This document shows, piece by piece, positions 3,542 through 18,626 of a stretch of 22,601 nucleotides of DNA. The stretch comes from a virus. Positions within the stretch are counted from its first letter, which is position 1. Each line of letters begins with the position of its first letter. The stretch spans positions 1 through 22,601 of the IMG/VR virus record IMGVR_UViG_3300042291_001110; one strand, given 5' to 3'. Under the pieces are notes generated by a model that was not told the DNA's origin, searched no databases, and saw only the letters and a list, made by a program, of their open reading frames with translations. Both the position numbers and the translations under genes were made by a program.

Positions 3542-3585
3542 TTATTATAAATTCGTTAGTGTTATATTATAAATATCACTTTTGG

Positions 3586-4503: not shown

Positions 4504-4511
4504 GCTTCATT

Positions 4512-5375: not shown

Positions 5376-5451
5376 AATATTTGTAACGATTGATTGTTAC
5401 TCATATATATGAACTACAAAAAGTTTTGTGTATATATAAAAACTAAGATAT

Positions 5452-5459
5452 TATTTATA
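5452..5459 (-). promoter_or_regulatory. Candidate T4-type late promoter (TATAAATA)
   Basis: The minus strand reads TATAAATA here, an exact match to the T4 late promoter -10 element. It overlaps the stop codon of the upstream lipoprotein gene and lies about 77 bases before the ATG of the first baseplate gene at 5375. A second AT-rich element, TTATATATA, sits between the two at 5431-5439. No -35 element would be expected for a T4 late promoter. The match is short in AT-rich DNA, so confidence is moderate. Confidence 0.45.
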
Positions 5460-6438
5460 TCTTTTTCTTATCTTCATCCGCTGCTTTCTTTTTATTTGCA
5501 GCAATCAATTGAACAACACCCATCAATAATATAGAACCAGCCGCTATTGCTCCAACGATCCACATAGGAATTGTTGTTGCCATATATGCAAGACCCAGAA
5601 ATGTGATGCCAGAAAAAATCATATTGAAGCTCTTGAATAACACGCCGAGAATCACAAACAATATTCCAATACCACCCAACAATCTAACCAACCATACCAT
5701 AAGTTCTTGTTGTTGTGCTTCTTTTAATAAACGAACTTGATCTACTGCATCAGCACGAATGCGATCAACTTCTATTTTCTTTTCAGCTTCTATCTTTTCA
5801 ATTGCAATACGATTGGATTCTTTTAGTTGCGACTTTTCTTTTTCTTTTTGAACAATTATTGCTTCAGCATCATCCAATTGAGCTTTTTGATTCACAGCCA
5901 ATTCAATTGTTGCTTTGTATTTTATATACAATCCATCTATACTTTTTTGAAGAGATTCTTTAATGATTTTTTCTTCAGCAACTTCTTTTTGAATTTCTGC
6001 TTTTTTAGCGTCAGTTAGAATATCCGTGCGCATCATTATTTCTTTTGAACGTAAATGTGCAATGGTGGTATTAATGTCTACTTTTTTCTTTTCTTGAGTT
6101 ACATGATATACACCATAGTTTATTTCTGATATCTTAGCGAAATTCTCAAGGTCTTTTTCGCGAAGATCATTATATGCCTTTTGTGTTTCTGCCTTTAACT
6201 TGGCATATTCAGCCTCCATATTTTTTTTGTCATCTGCTGCTTTTTTTTCCGCTATTTCTGCCCTTTCCATTGCTTCTTTTGCTGACTGCGCTGCAACAAC
6301 TGCCGCCACATTCACTTCTGGTTCTTTTACTATTTGTTCGGATTTTTCTAGTTTCTTTCCAAAACTGGGCATTTTTGGTATACTTGGACATCCTGTCAAC
6401 AGCAACAGAGCCAGAAATGATATGACTAGTTTTTTCAT
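5455..6438 (-). CDS. Coiled-coil lipoprotein with C-terminal membrane helices; candidate unimolecular spanin
   Basis: This 327-residue protein starts with a classic lipoprotein signal: MKK, a hydrophobic stretch, and lipobox LTGC with C17 as the expected lipidated residue. Residues ~45-245 are almost uninterrupted charged heptad-like helix rich in Ala, Glu and Lys. The C-terminus has three hydrophobic segments (about 248-268, 270-290 and 292-313) and a Lys-rich tail. Outer-membrane anchor, periplasmic coiled coil and inner-membrane helix in one chain is the layout of u-spanins such as T1 gp11, which fuse outer and inner membranes at lysis. About 200 helical residues span ~30 nm, comparable to a periplasm. 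It is far longer than T1 gp11, has three membrane segments rather than one, and lies in a tail cluster. A virion- or membrane-associated protein remains possible. Confidence 0.5.
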   Translation of the reverse strand: MKKLVISFLALLLLTGCPSIPKMPSFGKKLEKSEQIVKEPEVNVAAVVAAQSAKEAMERAEIAEKKAADDKKNMEAEYAKLKAETQKAYNDLREKDLENFAKISEINYGVYHVTQEKKKVDINTTIAHLRSKEIMMRTDILTDAKKAEIQKEVAEEKIIKESLQKSIDGLYIKYKATIELAVNQKAQLDDAEAIIVQKEKEKSQLKESNRIAIEKIEAEKKIEVDRIRADAVDQVRLLKEAQQQELMVWLVRLLGGIGILFVILGVLFKSFNMIFSGITFLGLAYMATTIPMWIVGAIAAGSILLMGVVQLIAANKKKAADEDKKKI

Positions 6439-6442
6439 GATG

Positions 6443-7831
6443 TTATTTGATTGCTCGTCTTGCTTGTAGTTTCTTGATCATAAATGCGCGCTGTGCAGCT
6501 TTTCTTTTTTCTTCCGATGATGCCATTGCAGCAAGATCGCTTTCTGGAGCGTCGTCTAGTTGATTGTCTGTGTCAGCAGAAAGTTCTTTTCTCAATGCAT
6601 CTGCTGTTTTCTTGACAAACGCTGGATCTAGATTTAGAGATACTTCTTCTTCGCTTGCACTTGAAGACAATTGTTGCATGATATCGTTGTCTGTTGTGTT
6701 TGGAGCGGCGGTCAAAATATTTTCGATTGCGCCACGAGTTGCTGTATCAAAATCAGTTCCACCGGTACTTGAAACTGGTGCAACTTTCTTTGGACGACCC
6801 ATACCAGCAATTCCTTTTGGAATATATGGTCCTTTTGGAGCTTCGGTTGGTGTGCCATCTGGAATGGTCTTGTGTCCCTTGACTACCCAACCAGTTGGAG
6901 AACTTGCGTCTTGAGCCTTGAACTTGCTGCCCACAGCACCTTTAACACGAATTTCTTCAATATCCGATTCATCAATAGCTTCGCGGATCATTTCTAAAAT
7001 TTCTTCTTTTATGCTGCCGACTTTTTGTGGAGTTGCTGGCTTCTTGACAACAGGAAGCTTCTTACCTTCTTGTTTTTCTACTGGTCCCTTGCCCGTAAGA
7101 TCTTTTGATGAAGCAACATTTTCTGTGTGATCATTTGAATCTTTGGATTTTTTGAATCCAGACAATCCTTTGGTTTCGTCAATACGTTTTTGCTTTACAG
7201 CAACAACTTCTTGAATAATAACTTTTAACAGTGCTTTTAGTTCAGACTTTTTCATGGTAGTTTTGTTTTCTTGTAAATTATTTTCGCTGATTTTTGTATT
7301 TGGCATATCAGATTCAATCCACTTCTTTACTTTTTCAATCATAGCTGGGGATTTCCAGTTAATTTCATATGGACTGATGTTCACGTCATGTTCTTTTCCA
7401 TCCGGTCCTTTGACATAATGAAACAACTTGATATTATCTTCTTCACGATCTTCATCTGCCCAAAATTTATATGGTCCTTTGATAGTCTGTATCATAACAG
7501 AATTGTCAACCAACTCATTCAAATCAGTGGCATGTGTGTCTTGTGGCAATGGATGTTCACCTTCATTCATAACAACTTCCAGATGCTTGGTTTCCATCGG
7601 AGTTGTACATGGATGATGTGGCATATCCCATTTTATGTCAGCCCAAGGACCAGAATTTCCATGCATCTGAATTTTTGTTACAGTTCCTTGATAGTTGTTG
7701 TATCCACCTTTGTTTATCAAACGAACTCTGTCTCCGGATTTTACTTTATGAGTTGATTCTTCACCCAAATACAGATCATGACTTTCAGTGACTATCAGTT
7801 TTATCAAACTCTTTAGTTCAGACTTTTTCAT
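6443..7831 (-). CDS. Unknown late protein with two MKKSEL-type leader helices (probable fusion)
   Basis: The 462-residue product begins MKKSELKSLIKLIVTE, and a near copy, MKKSELKALLKVIIQE, recurs internally at residue 193 (ATG at 7255). The two halves therefore look like formerly separate genes joined in frame. The first half holds an SH3- or KOW-like segment (~28-88) with SGDRVRLINKG and GTVTKIQ, and conserved aromatics to ~165. The second half is Pro/Lys-rich linker, an acidic segment with EIRVKGAVGSKFK (~293-305), and an Ala-rich C-terminus ending in a basic helix. It follows the 106-residue gene by three bases and precedes the lipoprotein gene by four, so translation is probably coupled. 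The function is unknown. The shared leader suggests that several proteins of this cluster go to the same place, perhaps the virion. Confidence 0.7.
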   Translation of the reverse strand: MKKSELKSLIKLIVTESHDLYLGEESTHKVKSGDRVRLINKGGYNNYQGTVTKIQMHGNSGPWADIKWDMPHHPCTTPMETKHLEVVMNEGEHPLPQDTHATDLNELVDNSVMIQTIKGPYKFWADEDREEDNIKLFHYVKGPDGKEHDVNISPYEINWKSPAMIEKVKKWIESDMPNTKISENNLQENKTTMKKSELKALLKVIIQEVVAVKQKRIDETKGLSGFKKSKDSNDHTENVASSKDLTGKGPVEKQEGKKLPVVKKPATPQKVGSIKEEILEMIREAIDESDIEEIRVKGAVGSKFKAQDASSPTGWVVKGHKTIPDGTPTEAPKGPYIPKGIAGMGRPKKVAPVSSTGGTDFDTATRGAIENILTAAPNTTDNDIMQQLSSSASEEEVSLNLDPAFVKKTADALRKELSADTDNQLDDAPESDLAAMASSEEKRKAAQRAFMIKKLQARRAIK

Positions 7832-7834
7832 ACA

Positions 7835-8155
7835 TTATTGTTTGTCTTTGATGGAATTTATTCTGTCAATGACTTGACCTTGCTTCTTTGACAAACTTGC
7901 CTTTTTACGTTCAAGTCCTTCTATTTTTCTTTGAACCGGTGCATGCAGTTTGACTATATCAGCGTCAATTTTGCGAATATCATTTGTGATTTTATCCAAA
8001 GCGGCTTGATATGTTGCCAATGATTTTTTGTCTGAATCAGTCATACCAGATTCCGGAGCAGATACTCCAAATTGAGATGCACCAACTTCACCGATTTCTT
8101 TCAGCTTACGCTGAACAATTTCGTTGATGATAATTCTTAGTTCAGATTTTTTCAT
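7835..8155 (-). CDS. Small coiled-coil protein with MKKSEL leader
   Basis: This 106-residue protein begins MKKSELRIIINEIVQRKL, the same N-terminal amphipathic helix seen in its neighbours. A short Gly/Ser linker follows, and then a strongly charged coiled coil from about residue 40 to the end, with KITNDIRKIDADIVKLH and a basic C-terminal helix. It has no cysteines, signal peptide or membrane segment. Its ATG overlaps the upstream stop as ATGA, and its own stop is three bases before the next start, so it sits within a coupled three-gene set. I do not recognise the family. A structural or scaffolding role is a guess from context. Confidence 0.75.
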   Translation of the reverse strand: MKKSELRIIINEIVQRKLKEIGEVGASQFGVSAPESGMTDSDKKSLATYQAALDKITNDIRKIDADIVKLHAPVQRKIEGLERKKASLSKKQGQVIDRINSIKDKQ

Positions 8156-8517
8156 TTGCCGTGCATTTTTAATATTTCTTCAGCAGCAGCTTTTGCTTTT
8201 TTGGCCAATTCAACTTCACGCTTTTCTTCCGGATTATTCATGTCTGTTTCATCATGTTCTTCATTCATTCCCTTATTTTCCCAAGCAGCCCACATTTCAC
8301 AAACACGCTGATTACCTTCGTTTTTAGCATTGTGCATCTTCCACATTGTAGCATAAGCTTTTTGTGGAACATCTTTATACTGTGCCAATAGTTTCTTTTC
8401 AAGAGCAGCTGGAAAATTTGGTGGAGCAGATTCCTGTATATTAGTTTCGGCAACTCCCAATCCAATTGCTTCTTTTACTATTTGTCTTACTAATTGTTTC
8501 AATTGAGCTTTATTCAT
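8152..8517 (-). CDS. Small helical protein with MNKAQLKQL leader, first gene of cluster
   Basis: This 121-residue protein opens MNKAQLKQLVRQIVKEA, a variant of the MKKSEL leader. It continues with a helical domain containing LEKKLLAQYKDVPQKAYATMW and then CEMWAAWENK, and ends in an acidic then Lys/Ala-rich helix. It is the first gene of the tightly packed set running to 5455 and overlaps the next gene by four bases (ATGA). The start at 8517 is an ATG about 110 bases downstream of the probable start site of a sigma70-like promoter. Two AT-rich elements sit at 8542-8556, just upstream. The function is unknown. Confidence 0.75.
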   Translation of the reverse strand: MNKAQLKQLVRQIVKEAIGLGVAETNIQESAPPNFPAALEKKLLAQYKDVPQKAYATMWKMHNAKNEGNQRVCEMWAAWENKGMNEEHDETDMNNPEEKREVELAKKAKAAAEEILKMHGK

Positions 8518-8541
8518 AGATTTTCTATTCTTATTATTAAG

Positions 8542-8556
8542 TATATATAAATATCA
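8542..8556 (-). promoter_or_regulatory. AT-rich late-promoter-like element
   Basis: The minus strand reads TGATATTTATATATA here, combining two recurring motifs of this window: TGATATTTATA (also at 150-160, 3568-3578 and 14707-14717) and TTATATATA (also at 5431, 18663, 19074 and 21039). It lies 25 bases upstream of the ATG at 8517, a suitable distance for a late promoter resembling T4 TATAAATA. This is a pattern-based suggestion only. Confidence 0.35.
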
Positions 8557-8633
8557 ATAAGTTTATAAAAAAAGTGTAACTAAGTTATACAGTGTTTGCA
8601 TCTACTGTGTGATTTGTGATGCTTATAAGCAAG

Positions 8634-8663
8634 ATTGTATAGTCGGATATATACAGATGTCAA
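8634..8663 (-). promoter_or_regulatory. Sigma70-like promoter for the 8517-5455 cluster
   Basis: On the minus strand a perfect -35 box TTGACA (8663-8658) is followed after 18 bases by a -10 box TACAAT (8639-8634). Transcription would start near 8627 and enter the gene at 8517. It lies just past the stop codon of the large endonuclease, so it restarts transcription of the cluster independently of that insertion. Confidence 0.55.
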
Positions 8664-8688
8664 GAACAAAATGCTCAATGACATGTTC

Positions 8689-10395
8689 TTATAACAGATT
8701 CATCTCGTATTTGAGATTACCACAGTCCCAAATACGATTATATCCATTATTTTGCATATTCTGCCATTCTGTTAAAATAGCATCAAATTTAGGTAATTTT
8801 GATTTTAGTACCTGTTTTCTGAACCCAAATCTATGATATTTATTATAATAACCATTTTTAAAATACCAATAATTTGGAGGAGATATATGCGCCAATTTCA
8901 TTCCTATTGAACTGTATATATTTTTTTGTATATATGTGAACCTACGATCTGCATAACTTATTATTTTTTTAGGGTTATGTTCGGATATAAACACTTTTAA
9001 AAACTTTGAAACAATTCCAACTATAGAAACAGAGGTTGCAAATCTAACCAATTCGTATGTATCCTTGTTGGGGTTTTTGATTCCAAGTGCAGCTCGCTCT
9101 TTTCCAAATGTAATAACTGCCACCAATTCTTTATTATAAAAAGCACCATATCTCACAGATGATATATCTTTTCCTTGTATATGATGTACATCAAGAAATT
9201 TATCTTTTTCAACATTTGATATTTCTGATATTATCAATTCTCGCGCACCTATTCTTTTTTCATATATAAAATGAGAACGCAATTTTTGTTTTACTATTTC
9301 TTTTTTGTTCTTCCACTCGTCCTCAAATATATGAATTAGATGTATATCATTATACTCACACTCTTCAGTTTTGAGCAAATGATATTTTTTTGATTTTCCA
9401 GCCATCTCTGAATGCCAATATAATCCGTTAAATTCAATAGCGATTTTCTTTGATGGAATGTATATATCAAGCTCCAACCCAGATGGTAAAATATCTTTAC
9501 TATTTTCAACTATAGATTCGTTGGTGATAGATTTTATATACTCTACTATTTCTTTTTCTGCAATAGATGTTTTTTCATATTCTATCGGATTGCACTTTAA
9601 GCAGCGAGGAAGATGCCCACCGTCTATATGGTCTGAAAATATATCATTGCATGACTTGCATTGAAATTTATACAAATTTATTCTATCTGTGTTGATATAT
9701 TCTTCCTTTGTAAATAACGGAATATACCCAACATTTAATTTGTGTTCATTCAGCAATATATCGTAAAAAGCGTCAATAAATTTTTTACGTTTTGCTTCTT
9801 TGACGTGCAACATTTTACTTGGATGCTCCGCACCATATTTATCAAGATTTGTTTGCTTTATCTTTTTCCTGATATCAGACGATTGAAATGGATTTTCTAC
9901 ACCATTATTAATCAAGCAAGTTTTTTTCTTTTTATCTTTTACATCACTTCGTTGAGATACATGTTCCACTCCATACAATTTAATATTGTGCGATTTTGTT
10001 TTTTCTATCACCTCATTTGACTGAAATGCCCAGTCTACGCCAAACTTTTCTTGATTTGTTTGTTGTATCTTTTTTAATACTTGTTCACTTTTTGATGCAT
10101 TATCTACTCCATATCTACTTAAACAAGTAACTTTGGCTTTTTCCGAATTTACATATGTTTCGTTACCATACTTTTCCAACTTTGTCTTTTTAATCTTGGC
10201 AATTCTCGTTGGATTTCTTGCCACATATATGCCACTGCATTTAGCAGAACAAGTTTTTTGATCACGCTTTATCAGCGACCAGAACGACGTGTTGCAAATT
10301 TTGCAATTTGTTTCTTGCCAAAATTTTAAATTTTTTTGCACACATATAGTATGGTCATTTTTGCTATCATTGTCAATTTCTATATTTTTGTTCAT
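8689..10395 (-). CDS. Free-standing homing endonuclease, Vsr/PD-(D/E)XK-like, with KYG repeats
   Basis: The 568-residue protein has an N-terminal zinc finger (C31, C34, C49, C53). Five or six repeats of the K-YGVEN-xx-QS type follow (~70-200), and then a second cysteine cluster (C246, C249, C265, C268). A nuclease core carries D310 (ELDIYIP), E321 (AIEFNG) and H328 (LYWH), continuing to IHLIHIFEDEW. This resembles the Vsr/EDxHD group of phage homing endonucleases. The C-terminal ~190 residues (VRYGAFYNKELVAVITFG, SYADRRF, RIWDCG) form a separate domain, possibly GNAT-like by pattern. The repeats are probably DNA-binding. It is a paralogue of the plus-strand gene at 11084. It starts one base beyond the tail-tube terminator hairpin, whose stem holds the only RBS-like sequence (AGAG). 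It probably cuts phage DNA to spread itself. Confidence 0.82.
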   Translation of the reverse strand: MNKNIEIDNDSKNDHTICVQKNLKFWQETNCKICNTSFWSLIKRDQKTCSAKCSGIYVARNPTRIAKIKKTKLEKYGNETYVNSEKAKVTCLSRYGVDNASKSEQVLKKIQQTNQEKFGVDWAFQSNEVIEKTKSHNIKLYGVEHVSQRSDVKDKKKKTCLINNGVENPFQSSDIRKKIKQTNLDKYGAEHPSKMLHVKEAKRKKFIDAFYDILLNEHKLNVGYIPLFTKEEYINTDRINLYKFQCKSCNDIFSDHIDGGHLPRCLKCNPIEYEKTSIAEKEIVEYIKSITNESIVENSKDILPSGLELDIYIPSKKIAIEFNGLYWHSEMAGKSKKYHLLKTEECEYNDIHLIHIFEDEWKNKKEIVKQKLRSHFIYEKRIGARELIISEISNVEKDKFLDVHHIQGKDISSVRYGAFYNKELVAVITFGKERAALGIKNPNKDTYELVRFATSVSIVGIVSKFLKVFISEHNPKKIISYADRRFTYIQKNIYSSIGMKLAHISPPNYWYFKNGYYNKYHRFGFRKQVLKSKLPKFDAILTEWQNMQNNGYNRIWDCGNLKYEMNLL

Positions 10396-10460: not shown

Positions 10461-10955
10461 TCAATATTGTAAAATCGCGTAGTCGTAGGTCAGCGTCATG
10501 CTAATGGTCAATGCTTCGTTTGCACTCCAATCCAAACCAGCACCATTGAAATCAACGGTGGATGGAAAGCACCCTTTCAGTTGCCATTGTTCAACTTTGT
10601 CACCTACTGGTCCAAGAACGTCGATGCTAACATCTTTTTTGTAAAAATCAGCATATCCGTTACGACCTGTGACAGATTCATGAGCCAAACGAACCCACTC
10701 CATACATGCTTGAGCAGCGGATGGAACGATTGGGTCATATAAAGAAATTTGAATGTCTTGCCATTCGCTCTTGCCCTTCAGTTTGCGATATGTGTTGATG
10801 TGGTCAAGTTTGATTGTTCCATTTGTGATGCTTGGACGAGCAGCAGCTTTGATAAGATATGCTGGAATGCCGTCGATGTTCATGATAAAACGGTTCTGAA
10901 CTTTAGGTTCAAAACTCGTAAAGAATATTTCATTTGCGCTTAATAGTTCTGCCAT
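10461..10955 (-). CDS. Tail tube protein (T4 gp19-like)
   Basis: This 164-residue protein has the size and pattern of the T4 gp19 tail tube family, which stacks as hexamers to form the inner tube under the sheath. Recognisable segments are NRFIMNIDGIPAYLIKAAARP near the N-terminus (the common F-V-x-I-x-G start of the tube fold), INTYRKLKGKSEWQDIQISLYDP in the middle, and a C-terminal set of beta strands with SANEALTISMTLTYDYA. The ATG is preceded by CGGAG with a 10-base gap, one of only two strong Shine-Dalgarno sequences in the window, fitting very high expression. A terminator follows. In T4 this gene adjoins the sheath gene. Here about 4.7 kb of other genes separates them, and endonuclease genes flank it on both sides. 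Confidence 0.93.
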   Translation of the reverse strand: MAELLSANEIFFTSFEPKVQNRFIMNIDGIPAYLIKAAARPSITNGTIKLDHINTYRKLKGKSEWQDIQISLYDPIVPSAAQACMEWVRLAHESVTGRNGYADFYKKDVSIDVLGPVGDKVEQWQLKGCFPSTVDFNGAGLDWSANEALTISMTLTYDYAILQY

Positions 10956-10965
10956 AATTATGTTT

Positions 10966-10970
10966 CTCCG
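10966..10970 (-). promoter_or_regulatory. Strong Shine-Dalgarno of the tail tube gene
   Basis: The minus strand reads CGGAG, 10 bases before the ATG at 10955. The arrangement GGAGAAA then ATG at the same spacing is repeated at the sheath gene and is absent from nearly all other genes here. Confidence 0.75.
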
Positions 10971-11032
10971 ATTGATTGTTTGCTGTGAGTTTTCACTAAT
11001 AATAAATAAACAACTGTCAATGAAATATTTTC

Positions 11033-11061
11033 TTTACATATAAGATATATAATACTATACT
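11033..11061 (+). promoter_or_regulatory. Sigma70-like promoter of the plus-strand arm
   Basis: A -35 box TTTACA (11033-11038) and -10 box TATACT (11056-11061) are separated by exactly 17 bases. The start would fall near 11068, giving a short leader before the ATG at 11084. The promoter points away from the tail tube gene, so the plus-strand arm can be transcribed by host polymerase independently of late transcription. Confidence 0.6.
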
Positions 11062-11083
11062 GCATACGAACTCAAATACACTT

Positions 11084-12607
11084 ATGGCAAGACCCAAGAA
11101 AAATCCAATACACACAAACATGCTTTGCAAGACATGCCAAATGGATTTTCAAGTGAAATGGGTCAAACGAAATATACAAAAATATTGCTGTAAGTCATGT
11201 GCCAACAAAGACCCAGAGGTTTTATCAAAAATGAGGCAATCTCAAAAGCAAACTTCGTTGCTAAAATATGGTGTGGAACATCCTATGCAGACAGCAAGTG
11301 TTGTAGAAAACCTCAAGATTAGTATGAAAGCAAAGTATGGCAAAGAGTTTGCTCAACAAGTAAAATCTATCAACGACAAGTCCAAGCGAACCAACATGAT
11401 AAACTATGGAGTTGAAAATATTTTACAGAAAAACAGTCCATTACGAGAAAAGATAATAGATGGTTGGATGAAAAAATATGGAGTGGATAATCCTGGTAAA
11501 TCTCGTGAAGTTATAGATCGCAGAAGTAAAGTAAAACAAGAAAATCATTATGAAAAACTTTGTGTATATTTTAATGATCAAAAAATAGAATGGTTGATAC
11601 AACCAGAAGAATATGATGGTTATCATTTTTCCAAGAAATATAACTTTAAGTGCAAGAAATGCAATGGCGGATTTGATTCTACTGTATATGTTCCAACAGA
11701 CGTATTTTGTGAATTGTGTCATCCTGAAAAGAAAATCACTGCCGAAACATCATTGCACGAGTTTTTGGTGTCTGAACTAAATGGAAAAACTGTGTCAAGA
11801 CATAACCGAACTATATTAGAAGGCAAAGAACTTGATTTTTATATACCAGAATTAAACTTTGCTATTGAATATAATGGTTTATATTGGCACAGAGAAGGTC
11901 AAACAAGAATGAGTAAAAACTATCATTTGGATAAAACAACAAAATGTGCAGAGAAAAATATACGATTGATTCATATATTTGAGAATGAATGGAAGCATAA
12001 AACAAATATTGTTAAATCTATTATTCGCCAAAGTTTGGGCGGTTCAATGGCTAAAATATATGGCAGAGACTGTGAAATCAAAAAAGTTGATAAAAACAGC
12101 AAGCGAGATTTCTTGAATAATTGTCATATACAAGGTGATGATCGTTGCAGTGTTGCTTATGGATTATACTATAAAGATTCTCTTGTGAGTATTATGACAT
12201 TTTGTAAGAGTAGATTTGATAAGAAAATAGAATGGGAAATATCAAGATTTTGCAATTCACTCAATACACGAATACTTGGCGGTGCTAGTAAATTATTCAG
12301 TGTATTTTTAGAAGATTATAAACCAAATAGCGTGGTAAGTTATTCTGATAGACGATTTTTTACAGGAGATATATATAATAGACTTGGCATGGAGTTTGCT
12401 GGAAATACTGCACAAGGATATCATTATGTATCGCCGGATTTTAGCACATTATTCAATCGCCAGATGTTTCAAAAATCCAAACTAAAGAAAAAATTACAAA
12501 AATTTGATGAGTCATTGTCTGAATGGGAAAATATGAAAGTTAATGGATTTGATAGAATATGGGACTGCGGTCATACCAAATGGATTTACAAACCCAAAAC
12601 AGTTTGA
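11084..12607 (+). CDS. Free-standing homing endonuclease, Vsr/PD-(D/E)XK-like
   Basis: The 507-residue protein parallels the 568-residue endonuclease on the other side of the tail tube. It begins with an AT-hook-like RPKK. A zinc finger (C15, C18, C35/C36, C39) and KYGVEHP/NYGVEN/KYGVDNP repeats (~60-140) follow. A second cysteine set is at C190, C193, C209 and C212. The nuclease core shows D251 (ELDFYIP), E262 (AIEYNG) and H269 (LYWH), then IRLIHIFENEW. The shared C-terminal domain carries VAYGLYYKDSLVSIMTF, SYSDRRF and GFDRIWDCG. It is the first gene of a plus-strand arm with its own sigma70-like promoter, opposite to surrounding virion genes. No Shine-Dalgarno sequence precedes the ATG. 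A role in spreading itself by cutting phage genomes that lack it is expected from the family, not shown. Confidence 0.82.
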   Translation: MARPKKNPIHTNMLCKTCQMDFQVKWVKRNIQKYCCKSCANKDPEVLSKMRQSQKQTSLLKYGVEHPMQTASVVENLKISMKAKYGKEFAQQVKSINDKSKRTNMINYGVENILQKNSPLREKIIDGWMKKYGVDNPGKSREVIDRRSKVKQENHYEKLCVYFNDQKIEWLIQPEEYDGYHFSKKYNFKCKKCNGGFDSTVYVPTDVFCELCHPEKKITAETSLHEFLVSELNGKTVSRHNRTILEGKELDFYIPELNFAIEYNGLYWHREGQTRMSKNYHLDKTTKCAEKNIRLIHIFENEWKHKTNIVKSIIRQSLGGSMAKIYGRDCEIKKVDKNSKRDFLNNCHIQGDDRCSVAYGLYYKDSLVSIMTFCKSRFDKKIEWEISRFCNSLNTRILGGASKLFSVFLEDYKPNSVVSYSDRRFFTGDIYNRLGMEFAGNTAQGYHYVSPDFSTLFNRQMFQKSKLKKKLQKFDESLSEWENMKVNGFDRIWDCGHTKWIYKPKTV

Positions 12608-12637
12608 CATTTCATGATTTATGAATAGCGTGCATAT

Positions 12638-13069
12638 ATGACTATATTCAATATAGAAAAATCTTTCACAGAAAAAGCCAAGCGTCGTTGGAATAAAATC
12701 TTTATTGCTGTAGATGTGCATGATGTTATATTAGAAGCTAAATATAATCTAAATAATGCTGGTGCGGGTTATATGCCAAATGCAATCAAAGTATTGCAGC
12801 AATGGAGCAAGCGTGAAGATATATCTCTGATATTATGGACAAGTAGTCATGTCTTACCTGCCAGTAAAGTGTTGGATAATCTTGAAAAACATAATGTATA
12901 TTTCAAGCATGTAAATTGCAATCCAGAATGTCCAAACGACGCATTGTGCGACTTTAGCAAAAAGTTTTATACCAATGTGATTTTAGATGATAAAGCCGGA
13001 TTTGAAGGCGATAAAGATTGGTTCCTTATTGAAAAAGAATTGAAGCGAATTGGAGAATGGAAAGAATAA
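12638..13069 (+). CDS. HAD-like phosphatase family protein with altered motif I
   Basis: The 143-residue product has the order of motifs of a small HAD hydrolase. Strand 1 is IFIAVDVHDVI (D26), motif II is LILWTSS (T68/S69), and motif IV is NVILDDKAGF (D117, D118). There is no large cap domain. In motif I the usual D-x-D is D26-V-H28-D29, so the second, acid-base aspartate is replaced by His unless D29 substitutes. Catalysis may be altered or lost. A short cysteine-containing segment (C94, C98, C104) precedes motif IV. It follows the endonuclease by 30 bases on the same strand and may share its promoter. The substrate is unknown. It is only distantly like the other HAD protein at 14142. Confidence 0.65.
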   Translation: MTIFNIEKSFTEKAKRRWNKIFIAVDVHDVILEAKYNLNNAGAGYMPNAIKVLQQWSKREDISLILWTSSHVLPASKVLDNLEKHNVYFKHVNCNPECPNDALCDFSKKFYTNVILDDKAGFEGDKDWFLIEKELKRIGEWKE

Positions 13070-13085
13070 TTTAATATAGTACAAA

Positions 13086-13120
13086 TAGTGTTGACTATAT
13101 CATCCAATACGATAACACTA
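13086..13120. promoter_or_regulatory. Inverted repeat upstream of the EF-hand gene
   Basis: TAGTGTT (13086-13092) and AACACTA (13114-13120) form a 7-bp inverted repeat with a 21-base gap in the 75-base intergenic region before the EF-hand gene. The left arm overlaps a -35-like TTGACT. The -10 candidates 16-17 bases away are poor, so an operator or promoter role is only possible. Confidence 0.25.
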
Positions 13121-13144
13121 CTTATTGTCAACTAATAACGGTTG

Positions 13145-13378
13145 ATGCAACAAAAGAAAAATATGAAAAAGTATATCCTATTAGCACTAGTATCAGTATT
13201 GTCAGTTGTAGCCGCAGAACAGAAAGAACGCCCGCCACTGACCGATGCGCAAAAAGCAATCGTTGCCAAGTATGATACCAACAAGGATGGTAAGTTGGAC
13301 AAAGAAGAACGAGCAAAGATTACCCCAGAAGATGCAGCAAAGTTGCCGCCTCCTCCCGCTGGTAAAAAGAAGCAATAA
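13145..13378 (+). CDS. Small secreted single EF-hand protein
   Basis: This 77-residue protein has a Sec-type signal peptide: MKKYILLALVSVLSVVAA, with likely cleavage near A24. The mature part carries one canonical calcium-binding EF-hand loop, DTNKDGKLDKEE (residues 44-55), with ligands D44, N46, D48, K50 (backbone), D52 and E55. A Pro-rich KLPPPPAGKKK tail follows. ATG 13145 is used here; ATG 13163 gives the same signal peptide with a shorter n-region and is equally plausible. The composition resembles small secreted EF-hand proteins of bacteria rather than phage virion proteins, so it may be host-derived. It has a strong terminator right after it and could be a moron-type gene acting in the periplasm or outside the cell. 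No function can be assigned. Confidence 0.7.
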   Translation: MQQKKNMKKYILLALVSVLSVVAAEQKERPPLTDAQKAIVAKYDTNKDGKLDKEERAKITPEDAAKLPPPPAGKKKQ

Positions 13379-13408
13379 GTTCGTGAAGAAATAATTCACT
13401 TAAAAAAG

Positions 13409-13430
13409 AAGCCCCGAGAAATCGGGGCTT
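13409..13430. terminator. Bidirectional terminator between convergent arms
   Basis: AAGCCCCGA (13409-13417) and TCGGGGCTT (13422-13430) form a perfect 9-bp GC-rich stem closed by a GAAA tetraloop. On the plus strand TTTG follows and the stem can extend by A-T pairs. On the minus strand a TTCTTTTTTA tract follows. It lies between the convergent EF-hand gene (+) and nucleotidyltransferase gene (-), so it can stop transcription from both sides. Confidence 0.85.
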
Positions 13431-13434
13431 TTTG

Positions 13435-14145
13435 TTATGAAATTTCTTTGACGCTCATTTTTTTATCATAGTTCTTGGCTATATTATCTTTGATTTTATC
13501 CAAATATCCATATGCACGAATAATCTTGAATACTATATTTTCTTCACTCAACTCGCCACCTTTGTCCAACCCAGATTGACGATACTTATAAAGCTTGTCC
13601 AACAGACTCTTTAGAGCAGTTTCATCATGTTTTGACAATAGTGTTGTTATTTTCTTCTTGTATTCTTTATACTTCTTTTTTATAAGTTCTTTGTTGAAAG
13701 TTGGACTTTCTTTAACAGGTTCTTGAATCCAATCATTTTTCAACACACTATATGAACTGGCTGAAGTAGGTACATGCGCTGTGTCTTGAACATATATTTC
13801 AACATCATGACCTTTCATGGTTATGTTGTGCTTGTTGTTCCAACCCACTTTTATAGCATCAAATAATGTTTGAGCATCATCTGCTGTCATATCTAAATCT
13901 TTAAAATCTGTGACAACATGCAAGTCAATATCACTATAATCTGTCCAATTATAATTGGTGATGCTGCCAATGATAACAATATCATGTATCTTTATATCTA
14001 TATTATTTTCTGTCTTGAGATTGTTTACAAAATCTTTTGCAATCTGATATAATCCTTTGCGCACTATATTATCAAGTTTGGCACCATCTTCATTGATGTT
14101 CCAAAGTTTTGGACAAAGAGTATCTCTGTATAAAGGATATTTCAT
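13435..14145 (-). CDS. Nucleotidyltransferase (MNT-like, pol-beta fold)
   Basis: The 236-residue protein has the signature of small nucleotidyltransferases: IIGSITNYNWTDYSDIDLHVV, giving G60-S61 followed by D72-x-D74. A third acidic candidate is E116 in HDVEIYVQD. These residues would bind two metals and transfer a nucleotide from an NTP to an unknown target. The C-terminal ~90 residues are Lys-rich and helical, perhaps for nucleic-acid or protein binding. Its ATG overlaps the stop of the upstream HAD gene by four bases (ATGA), so the two enzymes are translationally coupled and probably act together. Its stop is next to the bidirectional terminator, so it ends the minus arm of the island. Possible roles include RNA end modification or antitoxin-like AMPylation. 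Neither is shown by the sequence. Confidence 0.75.
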   Translation of the reverse strand: MKYPLYRDTLCPKLWNINEDGAKLDNIVRKGLYQIAKDFVNNLKTENNIDIKIHDIVIIGSITNYNWTDYSDIDLHVVTDFKDLDMTADDAQTLFDAIKVGWNNKHNITMKGHDVEIYVQDTAHVPTSASSYSVLKNDWIQEPVKESPTFNKELIKKKYKEYKKKITTLLSKHDETALKSLLDKLYKYRQSGLDKGGELSEENIVFKIIRAYGYLDKIKDNIAKNYDKKMSVKEIS

Positions 14146-14702
14146 TCGATCACAAATGGTTGTAATTTTTTGATACTACTTGAAGCGTCGGTGTGATGAA
14201 TAGCAATACGATGCAATGCAACATTGTCCCAAACATTTATGTTCTTTTGAGTATCATCTAGCAACACGTGAGTAACACGACCGGTCGTTTTTAGAATATA
14301 TTCCGGTTTCTTTGAACCAGCAGACGCAATAATAACTTTCACAGTTGGATCAATATGCTTGCGAATCCATGCAGTTTTTTGTTGAACAATGCTGCTGCCT
14401 TGACCTGCACTCAAAATAACCGGCAGTGGGTTCTTGAAGTTCTCTTTGATAAAATCCCAAAGAATTTTAGCATCTGGAGTCGGTTTCAAATCAATCCAAA
14501 AATTTGGCTTGCTTGCAATTAATTTCCAAAATGAACTCTTTCCGTTCTTTTCTTCATATTCTTTTGGAGCCAATCCATCTGAAAGTTCCTTAAATCCAGC
14601 GTCCATATCAACCAAAACTCCATCCATGTCGCAGTATAATTGAACTTGCAGAGCACTTTTTTCTTCTTCTTCCTTCAATAGATCTTTTAACAATATATGC
14701 AT
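14142..14702 (-). CDS. HAD-family 5'-nucleotidase-like phosphatase
   Basis: The 186-residue protein carries intact HAD motifs. Motif I is YCDMDGVLVDMD with nucleophile D25 and acid-base D27. Motif II is PVILSAGQG with S98. A motif III lysine lies in SKKPEYIL (K131/K132). Motif IV is THVLLDDTQKN with D149/D150. Size and pattern fit the 5'(3')-deoxyribonucleotidase-like HAD group found in many phages, but a polynucleotide 3'-phosphatase role cannot be excluded. A charged N-terminal segment (LLKDLLKEEEEK) precedes the fold and weakly recalls the leaders of the 6443-8517 genes. The gene starts 12 bases after the Vsr-like endonuclease and overlaps the nucleotidyltransferase. The element TGATATTTATA lies only 4 bases before its ATG, and there is no Shine-Dalgarno sequence. 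Confidence 0.75.
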   Translation of the reverse strand: MHILLKDLLKEEEEKSALQVQLYCDMDGVLVDMDAGFKELSDGLAPKEYEEKNGKSSFWKLIASKPNFWIDLKPTPDAKILWDFIKENFKNPLPVILSAGQGSSIVQQKTAWIRKHIDPTVKVIIASAGSKKPEYILKTTGRVTHVLLDDTQKNINVWDNVALHRIAIHHTDASSSIKKLQPFVIE

Positions 14703-14714
14703 ATACTATAAATA

Positions 14715-15512
14715 TCATGATTTTGTTGAATGAGCGAGTTTTTTCTTTGAGTTTTCCCAAACTATTTCAACACCATAACCGGCCAACATCAACTTATTTG
14801 TTTTAATGGCATCTTTGTCCCATTTTTCTTTTGCTGTCATACGCAACGACTTATTATAATAATTCGGCTGACATTTTGATGGATTGCAATGCCAATAATC
14901 ACCGTAGCATTCTATTGCTTTTTTTAACGATGGTATATAAATATCCACCGAACATCTTGCATCTTTTAGATATTCTTCCAACAGTGCGTCTGGATATTCT
15001 AATAAAACAAGATCATAAGTTTGTTTTTGAAACTTTGATATGCGTTTTCCGTTTGATAATATAGCAGAAGGGCTATCAAAATAGCACGCGGTTCCGTATT
15101 TTTTCATACAAGTATTTGCAGCTTTTTCTGAGTTGTTGTATTTATAATTTCCGTATTTTGTCAGTTTGGTTTTTGATATCTTTTCAACCGAAATTGGATC
15201 GTTCATAGGATTATTATCATTTATCCAAACTTTAAGTTTTTCTTTCTTTTCTTTTGAACTTCTGTTACATTCATTTGAACAATATTGCTGCAATTTTCCA
15301 GACCTTGGATGTAGTATTCTTTTATATCTATCAAACGGTTTATTGCAATTTAGGCAATTTACAATTTCGTGATTTTGCGATTTTCTCCAAGCATACATGG
15401 CTTTTGTGTCTATGAATCTTTTATTTCTGTGCTTCCAATCAACCGTGAAAGATTTACCAGTCCATTCGCAAATTTTATTTATTGACTCTGGGTTTCCATA
15501 ATTTGTTTTCAT
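14715..15512 (-). CDS. Vsr-like homing endonuclease, short form
   Basis: Using the ATG at 15512 the product is 265 residues. A zinc finger is formed by C53, C56, C78 and C82. Two KYG repeats follow (LTKYGNYKY, MKKYGTACY). The C-terminal nuclease domain reads VDIYIPSLKKAIECYGDYWHC, then W-KD-K and AGYGVEIVWE. This closely follows the layout of the very-short-patch-repair endonuclease Vsr, with D190 and H208 as the likely catalytic pair. It lacks the extra C-terminal domain of the two larger endonucleases. It lies directly behind the sheath terminator, on the same strand. A longer reading from TTG 15542 has no support. It is probably a free-standing homing endonuclease that inserted next to the sheath gene. 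Confidence 0.8.
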   Translation of the reverse strand: MKTNYGNPESINKICEWTGKSFTVDWKHRNKRFIDTKAMYAWRKSQNHEIVNCLNCNKPFDRYKRILHPRSGKLQQYCSNECNRSSKEKKEKLKVWINDNNPMNDPISVEKISKTKLTKYGNYKYNNSEKAANTCMKKYGTACYFDSPSAILSNGKRISKFQKQTYDLVLLEYPDALLEEYLKDARCSVDIYIPSLKKAIECYGDYWHCNPSKCQPNYYNKSLRMTAKEKWDKDAIKTNKLMLAGYGVEIVWENSKKKLAHSTKS

Positions 15513-15567
15513 ATAAACATAAATATACGACCCTGTAGGCAAAATGATGAAATCCTGCTATATAAAA

Positions 15568-15595
15568 AAGAAACCCACCAAAAAGTGGGTTTCTT
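15568..15595 (-). terminator. Tail sheath terminator
   Basis: A perfect 11-bp stem (15568-15578 with 15585-15595, AAGAAACCCAC and its complement) encloses a 6-base loop and is followed on the minus strand by TTTTTATA. It lies 19 bases after the sheath stop codon and before the endonuclease start at 15512, so it is a typical intrinsic terminator for the sheath message. Confidence 0.85.
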
Positions 15596-15614
15596 GTAAT
15601 CAGTTTTTTACGAT

Positions 15615-18600
15615 TTATGCGCCCGGAAAAACGGCACCCGAAGGGAGTACATTGAAATCGAGCACAATGAATTCTGCGGTCTTTGTTGGTTGAATATAGA
15701 TTTGTCCATAAAGGATGTTTCTATCAACCAAATCAGCAGTGTTGTTGCTGTCATCCATGATTACCTTGAAGGAATAGATACCAGAACGTTGTTGTACGCT
15801 TTCTAGATATGGATTAACGATGTTCAAGAAACGCTGACGAGTTGTTGATACGTTTTGTTCAAACACTAGATAGCGAGAAGAAGATGCGATGAACTTCTTC
15901 AGTGCAATCAATAGACGACGTACATTAACTCGGTCCAGAGCGGAAGCCTGACGTTGTAGTGTCTTTTGACCCCACGCTACCACACCTTGACCCGGAAATG
16001 CAGCGATTGGGTTAACGTGACCCTCGTATAGAGTATCGCGTTCAGTGTGTGTCAAACGGTCAGCAACTTGAACTGCTTGTGGAATGCCACCACGGTTCAG
16101 ACCTGCTGGGGCAAACCATTCAGCTGCCACATTGTCGTTGGCGGCATATACGCTCATCATAACGACAGATGGTGGAACTGGTATGATCTTATTGCTGTTG
16201 GTGTCTTGAATCTTGATCCAAGGATAATAGGTGGCAGCATAGTTTGTGTCAAACTGTGCAGCCAGGTCTACCACATTTTGGATAGAAGTATCGCCAGCCA
16301 TTTGGTTTGGTGCAATGTCCATGATATAGAATGCATCACCGCGACGTTCACAAGTATCAATAACCAGTGAAGCAACATATGGGTGATCTTGATATTCAAT
16401 ACCAGGAACCGTGATAAGATTAAAGTCAAACTCATCAGCATTGCTCAACGCAGTCAAACATTGTTTGTATGCGTAAGAACCATAACTTTTGTTGGTAGAA
16501 CAATCCAATCCTTGTTGATTGGTTGGCAAAATGTCATTACCAACCAGCAATGGAACTGAAGGAGATTGACCATCAAACCCACCTTGGAATCCAAGAATGA
16601 AACGACGTTTTTTGATGTTTAAGTTTTCTTCGCTAGCGACATACAATGGAGTAATACCACATTTTGTTTCTAAATCGAAGGCAACGTTTGCACCAGTTTC
16701 ATTGATGGATTCAGCGCCCAGTGGAATTGGAGAAAAATATTGCTTGTTGTCAAGTTCTGGACCAACCGAACTTCCGTTTGGATACAGAGCCAGCAGATCT
16801 TCATCGGATTGGGCTGGGGCTGGTTGGAATACGATACCAGATGCATAACGACCCGGTTGCAATGGGTAAGCAGACGCACTGCAATATTGCATTGCTGGTA
16901 ACTTACCTAGACGTGCATAATCTCCACTTATTGGTGCGGAATATGGACCAAATCCAAATGGAATTGAGCCAACTGGCCACGGAGATGTTGCCATCTCAAC
17001 GCGGATCAACTTGCTTTTGTTGACATAATCACCAAATTGAACAATCTTGCCGTTGAAGTCGATGTAGTTATAAATATCACCGATACGACGAGCAACATAG
17101 TTGCTGCTGTTGACATCCAAGTTTAGATTGTCGTATCGTTCTATTATTTGTGTCCTTGCATCTGTGTCGGAGAAGTCGCGTAGAATTAGCGAGAATGAAC
17201 CATATTTTGTACCGGGAATCGAACCAGCCGAACGAACATTGCTGATTTCAATTTTGTATGAAGTATTGGCCGAAGTACCGTCGCTCAAAGTATGAACCTT
17301 GAACAAATCATAAGCCAGTGAAGATGTGGTATTAAAACCAGCAACCAATTGCGAGCGAATATATGGAGTATATGCATTTGTTAGATCAAAGTCCGACGTG
17401 CTTGTATCAGGAGTTCTATCATCGGCGAACTTCATGTTATCACGAGAAGAAATCTGAATCTTCCAGCTACCGGAATCCAACATTTCATTGATAATTTCTT
17501 TGGTTCTGTTCTTGAAGTTTTTGTATGTATAAGCAGCTTCGATCTTTTGACCAGCGGAAACTGGATAATAACCAGCCATTGGATCGGTACCAAACACATT
17601 GGTTAGATAAGCAGATGATTCTGTATCTAACGAGAAGGTGTATGTTCCATAAGAACTGCTGACATATTGATTTGTGTCAGTATCGAAATGAACATCGTTT
17701 AGTGCTAGACTATAATCCGCACCGACAACTGTTGCATTACTTGGCGTTAAAACAGAGCCACTGAAACCAAATAGGTTTTGACCGCGATCATATGCAGTAT
17801 TGGCCAGAACAGCCAAAACAACTTCGTCACGCACCGGTACAGCCGACGCACTTCCACAATCGTCTTCACTGGAAACTCCACTTGGGGTCCAGCTGTTAGT
17901 ATTAATAGAACCATAAGAACCGGACAAAACACCCGATATATCCAAAGTGTAATTACACGCATTAGTTGGATTGGAAACAATAGATGCGACTGGAATGGTT
18001 GCTGTAGTAGGAATGTTCCACGAAACTAGAGGTAAGTTGAGTTTTGTTGTAGATACAAACTGGTCAAACACGCCTGGAGTGGAGCCTGACAATGCAACGG
18101 TGCTGCTAGATACTGTAGTAAAAGCAACATCTCCAACAACCACTGTAGAACCGGAATAGATACCAGAGGAAAATTCCAGACTCAAAGAACCTGAAATTAC
18201 GAATTGTCCAGCTACTCCGGAGTATACCCACGAACCATCAAGCAAATACCCACTGAACGAACCGCTCTCAACAAAGCGTGCGTATTGACCCGGAATTGCA
18301 CTGATGACCAGAGCATCTTTTTGTTCATAGCCACCCAATCCACCGACGCGGCAGACTGTGACTTGACCTTGCTGACGCAAGTATTGTTGTGCGGTAATTG
18401 GACCATATAGTGTACCATCAGGATCACCGAAGATGCTTGTTAAGTCACCCTCACTGGTTATTACCGTTGGCGAAAATCCTGGTCCCTTTTTAAAGGGAGC
18501 AACGACTACTCCTCCGATTGCTGCTACACCCTGTGCCAGAAACGATTGGTCAATTTCACGAGTGAATACACCTGGTGAAACGATACGTTCTGAAGGGCTA

Positions 18601-18626
18601 TACTTTGCATTTTGTTCTATTGCCAT
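15615..18626 (-). CDS. Contractile tail sheath protein (T4 gp18-like)
   Basis: The 1003-residue protein is the contractile sheath subunit. The N-terminus has SPGVFTREIDQSFL, then PFKKGPG and ITSEGDLTSIFGDPDG and QQYLRQQGQVTVCRVGG, all typical of sheath proteins. The conserved C-terminal domain includes RVNVRRLLIALKKFI, VFEQN, TRQRFLNIVNPYLESV, FKVIMDDSNNTADLVDRN and a final strand set. T4 gp18 has 659 residues. The extra ~340 here lie mainly in a Ser/Gly/Thr-rich, beta-like region (~115-500), which should form surface domains on the tail. The ATG follows AGGAG with a 10-base gap, the best RBS in the window, and a terminator follows, fitting a strongly expressed single-gene message. The TTATATATA element at 18663-18671 may be its late promoter. 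Confidence 0.96.
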   Translation of the reverse strand: MAIEQNAKYSPSERIVSPGVFTREIDQSFLAQGVAAIGGVVVAPFKKGPGFSPTVITSEGDLTSIFGDPDGTLYGPITAQQYLRQQGQVTVCRVGGLGGYEQKDALVISAIPGQYARFVESGSFSGYLLDGSWVYSGVAGQFVISGSLSLEFSSGIYSGSTVVVGDVAFTTVSSSTVALSGSTPGVFDQFVSTTKLNLPLVSWNIPTTATIPVASIVSNPTNACNYTLDISGVLSGSYGSINTNSWTPSGVSSEDDCGSASAVPVRDEVVLAVLANTAYDRGQNLFGFSGSVLTPSNATVVGADYSLALNDVHFDTDTNQYVSSSYGTYTFSLDTESSAYLTNVFGTDPMAGYYPVSAGQKIEAAYTYKNFKNRTKEIINEMLDSGSWKIQISSRDNMKFADDRTPDTSTSDFDLTNAYTPYIRSQLVAGFNTTSSLAYDLFKVHTLSDGTSANTSYKIEISNVRSAGSIPGTKYGSFSLILRDFSDTDARTQIIERYDNLNLDVNSSNYVARRIGDIYNYIDFNGKIVQFGDYVNKSKLIRVEMATSPWPVGSIPFGFGPYSAPISGDYARLGKLPAMQYCSASAYPLQPGRYASGIVFQPAPAQSDEDLLALYPNGSSVGPELDNKQYFSPIPLGAESINETGANVAFDLETKCGITPLYVASEENLNIKKRRFILGFQGGFDGQSPSVPLLVGNDILPTNQQGLDCSTNKSYGSYAYKQCLTALSNADEFDFNLITVPGIEYQDHPYVASLVIDTCERRGDAFYIMDIAPNQMAGDTSIQNVVDLAAQFDTNYAATYYPWIKIQDTNSNKIIPVPPSVVMMSVYAANDNVAAEWFAPAGLNRGGIPQAVQVADRLTHTERDTLYEGHVNPIAAFPGQGVVAWGQKTLQRQASALDRVNVRRLLIALKKFIASSSRYLVFEQNVSTTRQRFLNIVNPYLESVQQRSGIYSFKVIMDDSNNTADLVDRNILYGQIYIQPTKTAEFIVLDFNVLPSGAVFPGA

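Follow-up and report, generated by a model that had tools for sequence, protein, structure and literature searches.

We analysed a stretch of 22,601 bases (hereafter the window, or W), which is the virus record IMGVR_UViG_3300042291_001110 and a fragment, and focused on the block of genes lying between its tail sheath and tail tube genes. The virus is a T4-like phage and probably a large one, the contig of a close relative being 297 kilobases (kb) long. An original prediction, made from the letters alone, had described the block as a composite mobile cargo locus brought in by free-standing homing endonucleases. The features of the locus, with lengths in amino acids (aa), are as follows.

8152-8517, minus strand: d8152, gene downstream of slot 1, used as the outer flank in comparisons
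8689-10395, minus strand: HE1, 568-aa paralogue of HE2 in slot 1, 3' of the tube (PHROG 3339)
10461-10955, minus strand: tail tube (Phage_T4_gp19, Pfam, E 1.2e-8)
11084-12607, plus strand: HE2, endonuclease of 507 aa in slot 2, adjoining the tube start (PHROG 3339)
12638-13069, plus strand: HAD-like protein (PHROG 1238, E 9.9e-12; Pfam match below the cut-off)
13142-13378, plus strand: short EF-hand-like protein (Pfam match below the cut-off; signal-like N-terminus judged by eye)
13409-13430, minus strand by scan and plus strand by inspection: G+C hairpin at the meeting point of the convergent arms
13435-14145, minus strand: NT, Pol-beta-type nucleotidyltransferase with a C-terminal helical part (PHROG 36119, motif and predicted model)
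14142-14702, minus strand: HAD, NT5C-like 5'-3' deoxyribonucleotidase (PHROG, E 2.1e-19)
14715-15542, minus strand: HE3, free-standing endonuclease of 275 aa in slot 3, between sheath and HAD (PHROG 3339)
15568-15595, minus strand: terminator-like hairpin 3' of the sheath (hairpin scan)
15615-18626, minus strand: tail sheath (Phage_sheath_1, Pfam, E 1.4e-15)

The distance between sheath and tube was 4.66 kb with six genes, close to the 4.6 kb estimated originally, and the gene positions agreed with the predicted layout of two convergent arms with an endonuclease at each boundary and a third endonuclease beyond the tube. The HAD and NT frames overlap by 4 bases. The hairpin at the meeting point had been called a bidirectional terminator; the scan gave its minus form, and because a run of five T closes the plus-strand form as well, this name is reasonable. 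Hairpins similar to that 3' of the sheath were also observed after the sheath in relatives without HE3 (L100 and L092). The endonuclease labels of the prediction were borne out by matches to PHROG 3339 'homing endonuclease' for HE1 (E 2.2e-123), HE2 (E 8.2e-120) and HE3 (E 2e-10), and the label of HAD phosphatase was well supported by the deoxyribonucleotidase match. The nucleotidyltransferase label stood on the predicted model, which resembles such enzymes, and not on Pfam, where the match fell below the cut-off; the EF-hand label likewise had a Pfam match, but one under that cut-off.

Subsequently, the locus was compared with related contigs (L-numbers), which were taken from lists comprising the best 80 of at least 595, the best 80 of 406 and the best 80 of 305 loci. 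Contigs found through NT carry NT by construction, and the proportions below are not population frequencies. Without nine tube-centred duplicates and L081-L084, which were dropped, the comparison set comprised 142 contigs. HAD or NT was present in 81 of them, sheath and tube without either in 59, and two were unplaceable. The gap between sheath and tube was 49-81 base pairs (bp) in 58 of the 59 contigs without HAD and NT, confirming that the wide spacing in the window is unusual; the lone long gap was that of L017 (8380 bp). Short gaps were also found in Microcystis phage Mel-JY01 (94 bp) and Flavobacterium phage immuto (45 bp). In another named relative, RM378, which was not used in comparisons, the sheath lies on the strand opposite to the tube across a gap of 98 bp. 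On a tree of tube proteins (126 rows: 72 clean, 44 with the island, 2 with other inserts and 8 unscored), the island state changed only twice, in one clade and in L242, versus about 34 times in shuffles. These changes indicate that the block was gained once in the main and retained in what was sampled. The original prediction had looked to clean junctions in close relatives as a sign of mobility; no clean sheath-tube junction was found among the 45 scored rows of the island clade, a further 8 rows of which were unscorable.

The endonucleases themselves had also been predicted to be mobile, and this was supported: close relatives were directly seen to differ in having or lacking the gene at a fixed slot. 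At slot 1 the window has 1757 bp and L003 has 63 bp; at slot 2 the corresponding lengths are 1644 bp in L015 and 145 bp in L014, and at slot 3 they are 890 bp and 62 bp in the same two contigs. Slot 3 is empty in L100 too, as is slot 2 in L088, L092, L126 and others, and HE2 was present in one contig and absent from another that was otherwise about 100% identical. Slot 2 was filled in 40 of 65 and slot 3 in 35 of 53 contigs scored by a 1300-bp rule with coverage cut-offs, and slot 1 in 10 of 51 scored contigs. Four contigs (L139, L140, L152 and L155) have an HE2-like gene about 420-440 bp from the tube. A slot was called empty when it gave no match to HE1, HE2, HE3 or one GIY-YIG-like query. 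The occupant of slot 3 varied: besides HE3, an HE1-like gene and a gene judged by eye to be GIY-YIG-like were found there. Occupancy of slot 2 changed at least 13 times on the tube tree and 15 times on the NT tree, and that of slot 3 changed 6 to 8 times. Furthermore, HE3 of L013/L015 is 91% identical to that of the window beside a HAD of only 62% and a sheath of 72% identity, indicating that HE3 moved on its own. In L018 and L135, the sheath and HE2 were found in broken frames, by decay or poor assembly.

The HAD-NT pair was also found with all three slots empty, in ten contigs without a match to the four endonuclease queries anywhere in the locus. When the other open frames of these ten were checked, L106 and L110 were set aside and eight were left (L012, L088, L092, L095, L096, L097, L117 and L123), among which L092, L095, L096 and L097 are near-identical, L095-L097 not having been scanned apart. 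In L106, NT and tube have between them an endonuclease VII-like gene (5395-6126, plus strand; PHROG 1035, E 2.6e-18) and a DprA-like gene (4724-5314, minus strand), adding a further nuclease class to the island. L110 has a gene for 547 aa (13788-15431, plus strand; PHROG 727, function unassigned) directly 3' of the tube, at the usual place of HE1. The proposal that the endonucleases brought the cargo in is at odds with the one main origin of the island and with the retention of HAD-NT in the eight contigs in which no endonuclease was found. The HAD-NT pair is probably an older resident of the phage lineage, inherited with or without the endonucleases. Beside HAD-NT-tube, L143, L145 and L148 showed no recognisable sheath gene; in L148 the gene that usually precedes the sheath directly precedes HAD.

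We then compared the genes adjoining the slots with slot occupancy. L126 lacks HE2 and L125 has it. To the left the two contigs share 99.86% identity over 6375 bp, from about 160 bp beyond the tube they are 100% identical, and their divergence is confined to about 0.8 kb containing the HE2 slot and the whole tube (68-92% identity per 100-bp step). Contigs of other samples (L127, L131 and L015) show the same identities to L126 in NT and tube, and the L126 tube recurs in L117, which argues against a chimeric assembly.

The same comparison was extended to contig pairs with NT at least 90% identical. When the two contigs differed in slot 2, the identity of the tube minus that of NT had a median of -19.7 points (98 pairs), versus 0.0 when both slots were empty (35 pairs) and -0.4 when both were filled (110 pairs). 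After thinning to 42 of the 65 contigs, these medians were -17.6 (38 pairs), -1.9 (15) and -1.6 (24), respectively, with ranges that overlap at both ends. For slot 3, discordant pairs (91) had median identities of 93.9% in NT, 65.5% in HAD and 79.7% at the sheath 3' end, versus 100, 100 and 100% when both slots were empty (24 pairs) and 96.6, 93.2 and 95.5% when both were filled (110 pairs). In the window's own group, the median difference between tube and NT was 0.0 in the 10 pairs without HE2 and -0.1 in the 36 pairs with it, versus -22.4 (range -25.2 to -17.6) in the 45 pairs differing in HE2; wherever a value was listed for a pair, the gene 3' of the tube was 88.4-97.5% identical. In the L007 group, the tubes sorted with HE2 rather than with HE1. 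Identity between L007 and the window was 84.6% over HE2-tube-HE1 versus 78-80% in HAD and NT, a small rise only. Flanking alleles thus varied with occupancy at slots 2 and 3 when the pairs were taken together, and did so separately within the window's group, the L007 group and L125/L126. With differences in occupancy, then, the tube, HAD and the sheath 3' end differed and NT did not, contrary to the view of the cargo as mobile passengers.

Gene content, polymorphic slots and a single main origin of the island are shown by the data, as is, for some of the groups, a linkage of neighbouring alleles to slot occupancy. As the best explanation of the whole, we consider it likely that the endonucleases are mobile and exchange the adjoining tail genes, and that they are not carriers of the cargo. 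On this view, three free-standing homing endonucleases would have entered fixed intergenic positions, one 3' of the sheath and one on either side of the tube. In a mixed infection with a relative that lacks the endonuclease, the enzyme would presumably cut that relative's DNA close to the slot; repair templated by the carrier would then copy the endonuclease together with adjoining sequence. Slot 2 would thereby exchange the tube allele, slot 3 would exchange HAD and the 3' end of the sheath, and NT in the middle would be left as it was. Within this scheme, we infer the site of cutting, the direction of copying and the activity of the present copies.

As to the cargo itself, NT matched PHROG 36119, a family of unknown function (E 2e-39). 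The arrangement GS...DxD...E is the Pol-beta-type nucleotidyltransferase motif, and the residues G60, S61, D72, D74 and E116 of NT were invariant in all 30 sequences compared. The fold lent modest support: VIA matched NT to the putative nucleotidyltransferase 2rff with a Z of 6.9, among matches that also included MNT antitoxin, CD-NTases and RbfA. A Foldseek search with NT gave no match at E <= 0.001 (best E 2.3e-3), a weak result that points to no substrate. The content of the island varied within the clade, including p82, an FARF-type protein and an FMN-reductase-like protein. A phosphoribosyltransferase domain is fused to NT in L005 (and, by inspection, in L016), and a Nudix domain to HAD in L040. 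In L020 and L021 (about 1425-8842), islands at the same site hold genes for NAMPT, an NMNAT-Nudix protein (NMNAT by eye), a Nudix protein and an RNA ligase; the NAMPT pair was also found in L142 and the RNA ligase in L111-L116 and L136. This set is possibly one that restores nicotinamide adenine dinucleotide (NAD) and repairs RNA. For the passengers, the original prediction had considered an anti-host or RNA-repair function. We tentatively suggest that the cargo does nucleotide-level work early in infection. Because NAMPT, NMNAT-Nudix, Nudix and RNA-ligase genes occur in sister islands, our best guess, an equally tentative one, is that this work may be nucleotide, NAD or RNA-end chemistry against host defence.

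HAD carries a conserved N-terminal tag, M.ILLK.LLKE, in 22 of 28 non-redundant N-termini, and four of the six misses are frames cut at or near the end of a contig or locus. One report (PMC9026906) describes the T4 targeting peptides as short N-terminal propeptides and T4-type proteases as cutting after Glu. The HAD tag recalls these propeptides, and one can imagine, with considerable doubt, that the tagged proteins of the cargo are packaged in the capsid and injected like T4 internal proteins; this idea concerns the cargo only and is compatible with exchange of tail genes by the endonucleases. In its favour, the strict tag was found in 11 of 370 open reading frames (ORFs) of the 297-kb relative (G001) versus 0.3 in shuffles, and in 7 of 433 ORFs of a 369-kb contig (G006) versus 0.4, and both contain a prohead protease gene, which was present in six of ten records, the other four being fragments. 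On the other side, Mel-JY01 had the tag in 2 of 232 ORFs versus 0.2 in shuffles, which is no more than the shuffle maximum of 2, and NT, the partner of HAD, is mostly untagged (2 of 23 with the tag). Tagged ORFs were also only weakly clustered near the protease: Fisher P values with the broad pattern were 0.0032 (G001), 0.21 (G006) and 0.4 (Mel-JY01), and P values with the strict pattern were 0.11, 0.25 and 1, respectively.

In the window, a tag of the type MKKSELK.LIKE or ILLK.LLKE is common to the minus-strand genes at 8152-8517, 7835-8155, 6443-7831 and 14142-14702. The gene at 6443-7831 encodes a 462-aa protein with a second internal start of the MKKSELK type, as if two genes had been fused. 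L151 and L155 have HAD without the tag and an NT open frame with the tag instead, and the frame of G006 with this type of tagged NT start encodes 1133 aa.

Returning to the exchange of tail genes by mobile endonucleases, several observations weigh against it. The contigs are metagenomic, the pairs are not independent and the contrasts are few; the window's group represents one split, with five HE2-free contigs, four of which are near-identical. The counts of slot-2 changes barely separate the tube tree (13) from the NT tree (15). L106 was scored as empty and yet has the endonuclease VII-like gene, so that other endonuclease classes may have been missed. No effect of occupancy was found in L143/L144, L149 and L146/L147, where the tube was within about 5 points of NT, and no effect of HE1 on the tube was found in L003 versus W (94%) or L103 versus L009 (93%). 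L125 and L129, with identical HE2, have tubes only 81% alike, and in the L125 group the difference between tube and NT was -14.2 when both slots were filled, -17.9 when discordant and -18.6 when both were empty. Finally, over 2252 bp that start shortly before the FARF gene and run rightwards, L126 is 99.8% identical to the HE2-free L117; this match is explained as well by recombinational loss of HE2, or by survival of uncuttable tubes only, as by gain.

Some of these observations would be expected if the locus were a mosaic hotspot of ordinary recombination, with the endonucleases as mere neighbours of tube and sheath alleles and their cutting irrelevant. The tubes that differ at equal HE2 state (L125 versus L129, and the L125 group) and the three contrasts without an occupancy effect point that way, as does L128, a recombinant resembling L125 from sheath to NT and L120/L122 from FARF through HE2 to the tube. 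We regard this explanation as unlikely, however, given the repeated gain and loss at the same slots, the refilling of slot 3 by other endonuclease types, the short tract centred on the slot in L126/L125 and the dependence on occupancy in the window's and L007 groups.

HE1 and HE2 were also examined as enzymes. The predicted model of HE2 had a mean predicted local distance difference test (pLDDT) score of 89.1, and its N-terminal part contains DUF7487-type repeats (Pfam). A profile of HE1/HE2 matched I-Bth0305I of the EDxHD family (PDB 3r3p, E 3.3e-5), and the fold of the HE2 nuclease domain resembled 3r3p in Foldseek (TMt 0.75; root-mean-square deviation 2.6 over 99 columns). D251, E262 and H269 of this domain were kept in all 32 sequences. 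PDB sequence searches with single HE2 or HE3 gave no relevant match, only the profile having succeeded. The endonuclease assignment of HE3, a shorter relative of HE1/HE2, came through PHROG 3339 only. The C-terminal domain of HE2 (about 328-507) showed a GNAT fold, for which the best Foldseek match was Mom of phage Mu (8bv8, E 9.7e-6); in VIA-align, Mom had a Z of 12.1 over 165 residues and other GNATs had up to 13.3. The link between HE2 and Mom in sequence was weak (hhalign E 0.024, probability 2%; score 20.8 versus a shuffled maximum of 17.0, n=30). Of 32 sequences, 26 have Ser at the position aligned to Mom S124, the residue changed in the inactive structure 8bv8, and all 32 have Asp at that aligned to D149, an active residue of Mom. 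Judging from profile and model, HE1 and HE2 are predicted to be Hef/EDxHD-type enzymes with a C-terminal Mom-like fold.

What the Mom-like domain does can be proposed only as a rather improbable conjecture: it might mark adenines at or near the enzyme's own target in the tube region, so that the carrier would be spared and only unmarked relatives would be cut. Insertion of a free-standing endonuclease leaves its target intact, and the domain could then, with the same low probability, be a built-in antidote. If true, this reading would unite Hef-type homing and the Mom-nuclease 'restriction' fusions of jumbo phages in one protein family, which would spread itself plus the adjoining tail-tube allele.

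The same domain architecture could be taken to mean that HE1 and HE2 are mainly weapons, that is, self-contained restriction-modification proteins whose Mom-like domain protects the carrier's own DNA and whose nuclease cuts that of competitors or the host, mobility being secondary. The modelled Mom-like fold would suit such a role, which was proposed for the jumbo-phage fusions by Iyer et al. 2021 (PMC7824862). A location beside a core gene with polymorphic empty slots is, however, the mark of homing, and some relatives are annotated as Hef-type homing endonucleases, making the weapon role quite unlikely. Least probable of all is a composite element, flanked by the endonucleases and mobilised by them in its entirety, on which HAD, NT and the remaining genes would ride as passengers. 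Endonucleases do stand at both boundaries, and HEG-islands with essential cargo have been described (PMC10448857). However, the island had one main origin with no scorable clean junction in its clade, eight contigs carry HAD-NT with no endonuclease found, and NT remains about 94% identical across a difference in either slot even as the genes on the outside are exchanged.

For the mobile endonucleases with exchange of adjoining tail genes, the closest frame is that of the free-standing T4 endonucleases SegF, SegG and MobE with localized marker exclusion (PMC2988022). Those are likewise intergenic genes beside conserved genes, polymorphic among relatives, and alleles of neighbouring genes are exchanged with them in a tract. 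Unlike T4 marker exclusion, the present case is one of natural variation around sheath and tube in uncultivated phages; the enzyme class also differs, with EDxHD and a Mom-like domain here and GIY-YIG or HNH in the T4 systems. The relatives of HE2 in named phages, some of them annotated as Hef-like or hef, align over 90-98% (20 listed of 406); the best listed identity is 38.2%, and all 406 records are below 60%. Hef of phage U5 is reported in PMC2988022 to cut nrdB.

A looser frame is provided by HEG-islands, in which, according to Barth, Dunham and Seed 2023 (PMC10448857), several endonucleases surround essential tail genes and one slot is filled by different endonuclease classes, as here. 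In contrast to HEG-islands, the bracketed sheath-tube block does not move as a unit; exchange appears to affect the genes adjoining the endonucleases and not the centre (NT). With the jumbo-phage fusions, HE1 and HE2 share a restriction-fold nuclease joined to a Mom-like GNAT domain, but those fusions were proposed (PMC7824862) to act in restriction with self-protection, whereas the fusion here behaves as a homing gene. The nuclease domain of HE2 is like I-Bth0305I by profile and fold; 3r3p is named a mobile intron protein in the PDB, whereas HE2 stands free and has extra domains at both termini. That homing endonucleases can act on accessory genes is seen in the SegB-driven amplification of anti-defence genes (PMC13096335); nothing in the present data shows an effect of this kind.

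The locus offers a natural-population view of what was seen in T4 laboratory crosses, with selfish endonucleases reshuffling essential tail genes between phages. It also corrects the tempting reading of endonucleases as carriers of accessory cargo, because the middle of the block tracks occupancy least. Nuclease-Mom fusions are already published and homing endonucleases of this kind are known. Among the papers listed for Mom and homing endonucleases, none was found to join Hef-type homing with the Mom fusions, and a search on momylation and endonuclease returned only PMC7824862. Why a widespread homing endonuclease family bears a domain resembling a DNA-modification enzyme is now a testable question.

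At the end of the window, a long open frame rich in V/E/A/Q and of low complexity was observed (21555-22595, minus strand), with a local G+C content of 0.58.

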